A DNA stretch of 46,642 nt from Colwellia sp. (lineage in GTDB: Bacteria > Pseudomonadota > Gammaproteobacteria > Enterobacterales > Alteromonadaceae): NCBI GenBank assembly GCA_016765685.1, contig JAESPR010000028.1, positions 1-46,642 of the forward strand. Direction: 5' to 3'. Made by a program: the position numbers and the translations under genes. Below are positions 4,438 through 7,025 of the stretch, piece after piece; positions within the stretch are counted from its first letter, which is position 1; each line of letters starts with the position of its first letter. The notes beneath the pieces are model-generated. The model was not told the DNA's origin. It ran no database searches and saw nothing but the letters and a program-made list of their open reading frames with translations.

Positions 4438-5211
4438 ATGTGGAAATGGTTACACCCTTACGCAAACCCAGAAGTGAGTTATCACTTTACTGGAAAAATT
4501 CTGCCTTGGCTGAGCGCTATAGCAGCCATACTTTTGTTAATAGGCATTGTTTGGGCATTAGCCTTTGCACCGCCAGATTATCAACAAGGAGATAGTTTTC
4601 GTATTTTTTATGTGCATGTACCTGCCGCCTCACTTTCTATGGGCATATATTTGGGCATGGCCATTGCCGCGTTCACCTCTTTGGTATGGCAATTTAAGTT
4701 AGCCGATGCCACCGCTGCGGCCATGGCACCTGTTGGTGCGGTATTCACTGCTATTGCTTTAATTACTGGCGCTGCATGGGGGAAACCTATGTGGGGTACA
4801 TGGTGGATTTGGGATGCCAGATTAACTTCTGAACTTATTTTACTATTTTTATATCTTGGGGTAATTGCCCTACATAATGCTTTTGAAGATAAAAATTTAG
4901 CCGGCAAAGCCGCTGGCATTTTAACCTTAGTTGGCTCAATAAATTTACCTATCATTAAATATTCAGTTGAATGGTGGAATACTCTGCATCAAGGCGCAAC
5001 GTTAAGCAAGCTTGGCAAGCCGTCTATGTCACTTGAGATGTTGTGGCCTTTTATCCTTTGCTTCCTTGGTTTTGCGTTGTTGGCCGGAGTAGTAATTTGT
5101 ATTCGTTTTCGCAGTGAAATTTTAAACCGTAATAGTATTCGCCCTTGGGTGAGAACGTTAGTGTTAGCGCAAACGCCTTTACCGACAAATAAAAGCACGG
5201 AGAACAATTAA
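4438..5211 (+). CDS. ccmC: Haem-handling membrane protein CcmC
   Basis: CcmC binds haem on the periplasmic side and attaches it to CcmE. The tryptophan-rich WWxWD signature is seen as GTWWIWDARLTSE near residue 120, and the two flanking histidines are in FYVHVPAA (about residue 60) and NTLHQG (about residue 184). Six membrane segments fit a length of 257. The start ATG at 4438 follows AAGAAGAG at a good distance. The stop TAA shares its last A with the first ATG of the tandem leader copies before ccmD. Confidence 0.95.
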   Translation: MWKWLHPYANPEVSYHFTGKILPWLSAIAAILLLIGIVWALAFAPPDYQQGDSFRIFYVHVPAASLSMGIYLGMAIAAFTSLVWQFKLADATAAAMAPVGAVFTAIALITGAAWGKPMWGTWWIWDARLTSELILLFLYLGVIALHNAFEDKNLAGKAAGILTLVGSINLPIIKYSVEWWNTLHQGATLSKLGKPSMSLEMLWPFILCFLGFALLAGVVICIRFRSEILNRNSIRPWVRTLVLAQTPLPTNKSTENN

Positions 5212-5369
5212 TGCAGTTTGAAACTTTTAGTGCCTTTATTGATATCGAGACTGAGAGTTGGTTATGGTGTTTATGTTGGAGAACAAATAATGCAGTTTGA
5301 AACTTTTAATGCTTTTATTGATATCGAGACTGAGAGTTGGTTATGGTTTTTATGTTGGAGAAACAATTA
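5199..5369 (+). repeat. Tandem duplication of the ccmD translation-start region (about 80-bp unit)
   Basis: A unit running from GGAGAACAA(T)TAATG through TATGTT occurs twice before ccmD, and ccmD's own start forms the third, diverging copy. The ATGs lie at 5211, 5290 and 5370, spaced 79 and 80 bases. All three open with ATGCAGTTTGAAACTTTTA. The first two copies are almost identical over their length. Each carries its own GGAGA ribosome site. Confidence 0.92.
5211..5300 (+). CDS. Leader peptide 1, a copy of the CcmD N-terminus (29 aa)
   Basis: The frame opens [19 protein letters not shown] and stops at TGA 5298-5300, ten bases inside the next copy. Its ATG overlaps the ccmC stop (TAATG), so ribosomes leaving ccmC could restart here. 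The first nine residues equal the CcmD N-terminus, but no membrane segment follows. It may be translated yet have no product function. Too short for coding statistics. Confidence 0.45.
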   Translation: MQFETFSAFIDIETESWLWCLCWRTNNAV

Positions 5370-5370
5370 A
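5290..5370 (+). CDS. Leader peptide 2, a second copy of the CcmD N-terminus (26 aa)
   Basis: The frame opens MQFETFNAFIDIETESWLW and ends at TAA 5368-5370, where the last base is the A of the ccmD ATG (TAATG). It begins inside leader 1, so the three frames form a chain of stop/start overlaps from ccmC to ccmD. The preceding GGAGAACAAATA supplies a ribosome site. Confidence 0.45.
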   Translation: MQFETFNAFIDIETESWLWFLCWRNN

Positions 5371-5606
5371 TGCAGTTTGAAACTTTTAGTGCCTTCTTGG
5401 ATATGGGCGGTTATGGCTTTTATGTGTGGTTATCTTATGGAATATCAACTGCGCTATTGTTAACGCTTATTTTTAGCTCCATCATGCATCATAAACAGGT
5501 ACTCAAGAATATTGCTAAACGCCTGCAAAGAGAAGATAAACTACGTCAAGTACGCCAGCAACGTAAAAATTCACAAGCCAATATAACTACCGAGGTTACA
5601 GAATGA
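5370..5606 (+). CDS. ccmD: Haem exporter accessory protein CcmD
   Basis: Small single-span protein that stabilises the CcmABC complex and helps release holo-CcmE. The N-terminus [20 protein letters not shown] is the usual CcmD opening. The membrane span covers about residues 20-40, followed by a basic helix rich in K, R and Q. I choose ATG 5370 (78 aa) over an in-frame ATG at 5337, because 5370 follows GGAGAAACAATTA and starts at the conserved MQF. The stop overlaps the ccmE start (ATGA). Confidence 0.9.
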
Positions 5607-6127
5607 ATCCCCGCCGTAAAAAACGCTTAACCATAGTTGCCTCAATACTAATAGGTATTGCTAGCGTTGCTGGTTTGGTGCTTTACGCGCTAAGCCAAAA
5701 CATCGATTTATTTTATACCCCCTCAGAAATCACCCAAGGTAAAAAAGATTCGGGCCTGAAACCTAATCTTGGTCAGCGCATTCGTATTGGTGGTTTGGTG
5801 GTACCCAATTCGGTAAAACGTGATCCAGATAATTTAAAAGTCGCTTTTAAACTGACCGACATGAAAATGCCAATAGTGTTTAAAGATAGCGACCCTATGA
5901 TCACTGTTTACTACGAGGGCATATTGCCTGATTTATTTCGCGAAGGACAAGGTATTGTTGCCAATGGTTCCTTAGCACGAGATAACAGTGGTACATTGCA
6001 CATCGAAGCGAGTGAAGTTTTGGCTAAACATGACGAAAACTATATGCCCGCAGAGCTTGCCGATGCCGCAGGTAAAGATTATAAGAAATTAGAATATAGT
6101 GACAAGCAGTTAGAAAATAAAAATTAA
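5603..6127 (+). CDS. ccmE: Cytochrome c-type haem chaperone CcmE
   Basis: Periplasmic haem chaperone anchored by one N-terminal membrane span (about residues 9-30). It binds haem covalently through the histidine in [10 protein letters not shown] (H143) and hands it to CcmF. The OB-fold segment [15 protein letters not shown] (about 57-71) is typical. Length (174) fits. It starts within the ccmD stop codon. The operon ends here: no ccmF, ccmG or ccmH follows, and folD converges from the other side 10 bases later, so the ligation module must lie elsewhere. Confidence 0.95.
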
Positions 6128-6137
6128 TTTTAGTCTA

Positions 6138-7025
6138 TTATGCACTTGGAGCTTGCCGAATGGCGGCTTTAAGTGTATTTTTCAATAAACAAGCAATCGT
6201 CATCGGGCCGACACCGCCGGGGACAGGTGTTATTGCACCGCAAACTTCACTAACCGCGTTAAAGTCGACATCACCCACTAATTTAGCCTTACCATTAACT
6301 TTTCCGTCGGAGCCATCAGCTTCAATACGGTTAATGCCGACATCAATAACTGTCGCACCTTTTTTCACCCAACTCGCTTTAACAAATTCAGCACGACCAA
6401 CAGCCGCTACTAAAATATCAGCTTGCTGACAAATTTGGGCTAAATTTTTAGTGCGTGAATGCGCAATAGTGACTGTACAGTTCTCTTGTAATAATAACAG
6501 CGCTACAGGTTTGCCAACAATATTTGAGCGACCAATAACCACAGCATGTTGACCTGATAAATCATCACCAAGATATTGTTTAGCTAAAATTATACAGCCT
6601 TGCGGAGTACAGGGCACCAAAGCACCTGCCTCGCCATTTAACAATCGACCTGAGTTCATCGCATGAAAGCCATCAACATCTTTTTCAGGATTAATTGCGG
6701 CAATAACAACACTTTCATCAATATGCTTAGGTAGCGGCAACTGCACCAAAATACCATGTACTGAATCATCACTATTTAGTGTTAATAATTGAGCTAACAA
6801 TTCAGCTTGGCTGGTGGTATCGGGCAATCGAATTTCATTAGAAATCATGCCCACTGCTACGGTTTGTTTAATTTTATTGCGCACGTAAACTTGGCTAGCG
6901 GCGTCTTCACCCACTAACACTACCGTTAAGCTTGGGGTAATATCGGTAGATTCTTTAAGCGCGGTTACTTCATTTGCTAGCGTAGCTAGCAGCTCGGTCG
7001 CCGCTTTTTTTCCATCTATAATCAT
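6138..7025 (-). CDS. folD: Bifunctional methylenetetrahydrofolate dehydrogenase/cyclohydrolase FolD
   Basis: Cytosolic enzyme that interconverts 5,10-methylene- and 10-formyl-tetrahydrofolate with NADP. Family motifs are [15 protein letters not shown] (substrate lysine region, about residue 50), [12 protein letters not shown], the Rossmann loop [11 protein letters not shown] and the C-terminal [11 protein letters not shown]. The length of 295 is slightly above the usual 285-290. The ATG at 7025 opens the typical MIIDGKKAA. It lies 36 bases after the small gene upstream and may share its transcript. Confidence 0.96.

Follow-up and report, generated by a model that had tools for sequence, protein, structure and literature searches.

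Strict coupling is reported in PMC6728339 for 13 of 14 overlapping gene pairs that were tested. As described there, the cistrons of such termination-reinitiation pairs are co-directional and belong to one operon, stop and start codon overlap, and the ribosome site of the second cistron lies in the upstream frame. These structural features recur at the ccmC/ccmD junction of a Colwellia sp. genome, where, however, the upstream frames are short by-products of a duplication and not genes, and coupling is putative. The junction also resembles the short tandem duplications that arise by slippage or unequal recombination, because its units are of equal length, stand head to tail, are 95% alike and are single in relatives. 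It differs from them in that the duplication spans a gene junction, with each copy adding a start codon and a frame that contacts the next one. For the proteins concerned, it is stated in the accessible parts of two reports that CcmC and CcmD occur in one complex (PMC10457321) and that release of holo-CcmE needs CcmD (PMC11868835).

The analysed stretch of DNA (the window, 46,642 nucleotides) carries the ccm genes in the order A, B, C, D, E on the plus strand (Pfam ABC_tran, CcmB, Cytochrom_C_asm, CcmD, and CcmE). The open reading frame of ccmC extends from 4438 to 5211 (PF01578, E = 1.2e-39) and ends with TAA at 5209-5211. The ccmD gene at 5370-5606, encoding 78 residues, is intact (PF04995, E = 1.2e-16; TIGR03141, E = 5.8e-19) and overlaps ccmE (5603-6127, PF03100, E = 3.8e-29) by 4 nt. 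A tetrahydrofolate dehydrogenase/cyclohydrolase gene on the minus strand at 6138-7025 (PF02882, E = 4e-67; PF00763, E = 5.8e-40), which we take to be folD, faces ccmE directly, so that no ccmF follows ccmE here. Upstream of ccmA, also on the minus strand, a piece of a REP-associated tyrosine transposase was found at 2512-2733 (NCBIfam NF047646, 34.5 bits with a cut-off of 80).

Between ccmC and ccmD, Tandem Repeats Finder detected an array at 5199-5395 with a period of 79, 2.5 copies, 93% matches and a score of 357. It is the top scorer of the eight arrays in the window, the other seven scoring 50-72, and a separate repeat search likewise yielded three copies of the unit in register. The repeat itself is thus far beyond chance, and the proposal of the initial annotation that the start region of ccmD had been duplicated twice at this site was confirmed, with a unit of 79 bp instead of 80 bp. 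Unit 1 (5199-5277, plus strand) starts with GGAG inside the end of ccmC. Unit 2 (5278-5356, plus strand) differs from it at 4 of 79 sites (5208, 5230, 5234, and 5269). The third, partial copy is the true start of ccmD on the same strand, beginning with the ribosome site of ccmD, GGAG at 5357-5360; its spacer contains one extra base, so that the ATGs are spaced 79 and 80 nt apart. Every copy contains GGAG, 8-9 nt, and then ATG CAG TTT GAA ACT TTT. According to the alignment, both units carry on the plus strand a 14-nt block, CGAGACTGAGAGTT, at 5246-5259 in unit 1 and at the corresponding positions 5325-5338 in unit 2, which replaces 4 nt (GGGC) of ccmD. The exchange shifts the frame ahead of the membrane helix of CcmD, and the helix is therefore lost from the copies, as had been noted. 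A templated origin of the block was rejected: outside the units, both strands of 4900-5800 lack any match of at least 7 nt, and the whole window lacks one of at least 9 nt. The internal GAGACT/GAGAGT looks like the trace of a local slip.

The source is a genome bin of 3.02 Mb in 128 contigs with a completeness of 76.85%, and the ccmC/ccmD duplication is known from this one bin. In these contigs the unit has no second match at E 0.001, and a mobile unit was rejected on this ground. Arrays with a period of at least 40 are not rare in the same genome, four being counted in 312,499 sampled bases; none of them copies a gene start.

Two short frames are predicted on the plus strand within the array. 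Leader frame 1 (29 residues) extends from 5211 to 5300 and stops inside leader 2 with TGA at 5298-5300, which begins 8 nt downstream of the A in the leader 2 ATG. Leader frame 2 (26 residues, MQFETFNAFIDIETESWLWFLCWRNN) extends from 5290 to 5370; its TAA at 5368-5370 overlaps the ATG of ccmD, which it reaches as TAATG. The earlier observation that each frame overlaps the next ATG therefore stands. Stops and starts overlap or touch at 5209-5213, 5290-5300 and 5368-5372, and a GGAG inside the upstream frame precedes each ATG by 8-9 nt (5199, 5278, and 5357), both as in coupled cistrons; the ribosome site of leader 1 is contained in the last codons of ccmC. The first nine codons of CcmD were said to be kept in both copies, which is correct at the residue level for leader 1, whereas leader 2 retains 8 of 9 (S7N). 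At E 0.001 neither leader had a match among the Pfam and NCBIfam models, and neither has the CcmD domain and membrane helix that would identify a CcmD paralogue.

The predicted RNA fold of the unit region was no better than that of shuffled sequences (z = 0.54; 141 of 200 shuffles were at least as good), and no Rfam family matched at its gathering score; an RNA structure or riboswitch was dismissed on these grounds. A promoter in the unit was likewise rejected, with 2 promoter-like sites compared with a shuffle mean of 2.1; the weak sites, one per unit, lie at 5239-5268 and 5318-5347. No terminator-like site was present on the plus strand of the unit region. In the searched literature, no title or abstract opening dealt with translation starts duplicated at operon junctions.

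The distribution of the duplication was investigated at the same junction in relatives. Including the window, 118 junction rows were located (109 distinct sequences, with a few repeats of the same genome among the rows); L078, L084, L092, and L109 were left out because the start of CcmD was not located. In none of the 117 other rows (108 distinct sequences) is the ccmD start preceded by a copy of itself at 70% identity or above, the best other match being 67% over 33 nt. All 38 other genomes of the genus that were searched are single-copy at this junction. This is one half of the outcome that the initial annotation had named as refuting its reading, the other half being an absence of ribosome density at the two leader starts; its appeal to conservation is not upheld. 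Among 394 genomes of the order, a double-start pattern was detected in that of the window alone; this pattern depends on the start ATGCAnTTTnA, and half of it fits 57 of the 118 rows, and 33 of 38 within the genus. A DNA search of 395 family genomes, scoring at most two candidates per genome, gave matches in 19 including the window's own. In the other 18 only single short stretches were matched at any one place. Many of these adjoin ccmC at the start of ccmD, although not all were checked, and at least two (G013:C44 and G329:C9) lie on contigs different from that of ccmC. In a wider scan the repeat occurred in 1 of 192 distinct ccmC/ccmD junctions, again the window. Adjacent head-to-tail copies that are single in relatives identify the array as a tandem duplication. 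The end of ccmC in the 38 same-genus genomes meets ccmD as TAATG in 6, overlaps it by 11 nt in 7, and is separated from it by 0-25 nt in 3 and by a longer gap in 22. A tight contact is consequently not required in the genus. An array of another kind was noted downstream of ccmE in a near relative (L034:4696-4933), with a 46-bp unit repeated 5.2 times and inverted pieces of the CTGAGCCTGTCGA type.

How far the clean stop/start contacts could be explained by the duplication itself was examined at the junction word TAATGCAGTTTGA (AATTAATGCAGTTTGA). In this word a TAA lying 2 nt upstream of the A in ATG closes frame +1, and a TGA lying 8 nt downstream of this A closes frame +2; reading passes through only in ccmD's own frame. 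The ccmC of relatives leaves the word by the same two exits, as in the 6 same-genus genomes with TAATG and the 7 with the 11-nt overlap. Single duplications of start-containing segments, 60-100 bp long, were simulated at 63 single-copy junctions with all allowed pairs of ends, and any stop between -3 and +12 relative to the next ATG was counted as a contact. Of the 80,073 outcomes 26.3% gave a contact, 53% an early stop, and 20.7% ran through; contacts arose in 39-40% for lengths not divisible by 3 and in 1.5% for lengths divisible by 3. The simulation models one leader, and two contacts jointly are rarer than one; the second contact in the window would, however, be mostly a copy of the first. 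After four random substitutions the chain of the window remained clean in 60% of trials, and after eight in 35%; of 750 single-base indels, 194 kept it clean. Clean contacts are a likely, though not certain, outcome of a young duplication. Because the word stops both frames other than that of ccmD and because 26% of simulated duplications make a contact, they do not in themselves speak for selection. The argument that intact starts, ribosome sites and overlaps indicate more than noise is not upheld, since the overlaps are built into the word.

Parallel duplications were found elsewhere in the ccm operon. By homology, 728 distinct ccm junctions (177 A/B, 177 B/C, 192 C/D, and 182 D/E) were scanned with a self-repeat threshold of at least 24 of 30 nt; when every junction was shuffled once, the highest value reached was 22. 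Four rows were obtained, which represent three independent events: the window, L045 together with L197 at ccmB/ccmC, and L028 at ccmB/ccmC. In L045, from a bin named Alteromonadaceae bacterium NORP200, the array at L045:2838-2999 consists of two 81-bp units, mostly the end of ccmB, that give two 26-codon frames. The stops of ccmB and of the first leader each directly abut the next ATG, and the last leader stops 1 nt before ccmC. The genome G128 matches L045 to 100% over the leaders. G155 (L150/L197), of the same genus as L045, has one unit, in which TAC stands at the position of the TAA of L045 and a 29-residue frame runs to a TAA overlapping the start of ccmC. G094 and G046 of this sister genus have a plain ccmB/ccmC junction, so that the copy number is 2 in G128, 1 in G155, and 0 in the other two. 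These copies resemble those of the window in their units of about 80 bp, their frames of 26-29 codons with stops at the next start, and the alteration of the parent sequence by small indels. They differ in their position at ccmB/ccmC, in a unit made mostly of the ccmB end instead of the ccmD start, and in being common to two species and less divergent than the flanking fourfold sites. The third event, L028 (G023, from the genus of the window, on the reverse strand of the locus), comprises two 134-bp units that copy the ccmB/ccmC junction, apparently with a decayed start of ccmC; the local alignment scored 54, and 200 shuffles reached at most 39. Its small frames stop ahead of the next start without overlap, the last one 13 nt before ccmC. 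Gaps of about 570-830 nt were also recorded from tblastn matches, between ccmB and ccmC in L060, L062, L065, L068, L069, L076, L082, and L111, and between ccmA and ccmB in L100, L104, and L111; these contain an extra gene or reflect a missed match.

The two species sharing the ccmB/ccmC leader allow its divergence to be estimated, in a comparison of only two bins (G128, 85% complete and 5% contaminated; G155, 78% and 4%). Fourfold sites differ at 47 of 96 positions in ccmC and 51 of 90 in ccmB (98 of 186 jointly). In the leader, 10 of 78 nt are different when copy 2 of G128 is used and 13 of 78 with copy 1, without any indel. With copy 2, 9 of the 10 differences lie in the first 53 nt, outside the ribosome site. 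If it was inherited together with the flanking genes, the leader appears to have changed less than neutral sites. Synonymous and nonsynonymous differences number 4 and 6 (copy 2) or 6 and 7 (copy 1), compared with 80 and 15 in ccmC, which suggests that the residues of the leader are less tightly kept than those of ccmC. Of the fourfold sites inside the leader, 4 of 11 are changed with copy 2 and 4 of 10 with copy 1. The adjoining end of ccmB is also slow, with 6 of 90 nt differing, and local recombination could be another cause of the low divergence. On this comparison the ccmB/ccmC leader gives the strongest indication that junction duplications can be kept, and some of them may have been retained under constraint.

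Whether ccm junctions are enriched in such events was assessed against 953 co-directional gene pairs from 312 kb of the same genome and 1.6 Mb of five relatives. Five of these pairs had a repeat of some kind close to the junction, none of them judged a copy of a start region (L189 and L222 were read and the array of L129 was inspected; L165 and L227 were judged by coordinates alone). The ccm set of 573 pairs from 122 partly redundant loci gave 4 hits, corresponding to the 3 events plus a simple repeat in L109. With the crude ORF calls of this comparison, 3 of 573 versus 0 of 953 gave p = 0.053 in Fisher's test, and 2 of 572 without the window p = 0.14; an enrichment in the ccm operon was not significant.

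Taken together, we consider it probable that the array reflects a lineage-specific, nearly neutral duplication, in tandem, of the region around the ccmC/ccmD translation start, with re-initiation kept by default. The end of ccmC and about 60 nt of ccmD would have been duplicated first; the extra copy would then have gained the 14-nt block, and the block-bearing copy would have been duplicated once more. A ribosome terminating ccmC at TAATG would restart on leader 1, end 11 nt into leader 2 and restart there, and end at the second TAATG to restart on ccmD, each restart presumably assisted by the GGAG that precedes every ATG. Such a route is plausible given the coupling in 13 of 14 overlapping pairs in PMC6728339, which also suits a selected chain. 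CcmD would still be produced, perhaps in somewhat lower amount: with leaky restarts the two extra steps would lower it, and the ribosome site that each ATG has may compensate. Given the reported role of CcmD in holo-CcmE release and its presence with CcmC in the complex, full loss of CcmD would matter, whereas a moderate change may not. The chain can stay open without selection because the junction word stops both other frames and the copies are young. Adjacent near-identical 79-bp copies are expected to be lost easily by slippage; that the two units are nevertheless 5% apart indicates that they have lasted a while, which counts against the neutral reading. The constrained look of the ccmB/ccmC duplication in the sister genus likewise seems to count against pure noise. 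The initial annotation had left the choice between a re-initiation chain and neutral slippage, leaning to the former. The duplication and the open chain it described are retained, and the preference drawn from conservation is not.

A chain whose frames, ribosome sites and contacts are maintained by selection, with the two extra steps serving as resistors by which the level of CcmD is reduced or its ratio to CcmC is set, appears unlikely, although all required elements are intact and ccm junctions were duplicated three times independently in the family. It gains some independent support from the ccmB/ccmC parallel, where the contact is kept and the leader is far closer between the species than the fourfold sites are; yet 6 of the 10 leader differences there change a residue, a larger share than the 15 of 95 in ccmC, and the small frames of L028 end before the next start. 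The absence of the chain from all relatives examined, the wide ccmC-ccmD gaps in 22 of 38 same-genus genomes, the contacts likely to be produced by the word itself, and the non-significant excess of ccm duplications also argue against selection. An artefact of assembly in a fragmented, incomplete bin, for example the joining of two strain variants, would account for an array carried by no further genome examined. We regard this as quite improbable, since joining alleles creates neither a 14-nt block shared by the units nor a new junction between them; moreover, the array is enclosed in a contig of 46 kb or more with intact flanking genes, and comparable arrays are present in other assemblies. 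It is also very improbable that slippage alters the number of units and thereby CcmD expression among cells. The units are adjacent and near-identical, and copy number varies in the ccmB/ccmC parallel, but that variation is between species, and with 4 of 79 sites differing no recent turnover is evident. Least credible is that the leader peptides are themselves functional, as an attenuator or as small membrane peptides. The frames are open, the ribosome sites are good, and three Trp codons fall within a stretch of seven in either leader, but these codons are not adjacent, and no family match, no fold above shuffles and no terminator-like site on the plus strand were found. The conservation in relatives and the stable or alternative RNA structure expected of an attenuator are both lacking, the former in all 117 other junction rows.

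If the duplication is neutral, which we hold more likely, clean contacts after a duplication are by themselves no evidence of selection. It is a tentative and rather doubtful extension that junction duplication forms a recurrent route to translational resistors in the ccm operons of this family, some of them selected, as the ccmB/ccmC leader common to two species suggests, with the window as a fresh case at ccmC/ccmD; a duplication of this type easily supplies both a start and a stop that contacts the following start. Should the chain be used, a slip would have added two start/stop steps between cistrons and left the operon unbroken, since both other frames close at the start word TAATGCAGTTTGA. 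It would then offer operons a simple route to change the ratio of two subunits, and for CcmC and CcmD, which the accessible part of PMC10457321 places in one complex, this ratio would be a sensible one to tune.
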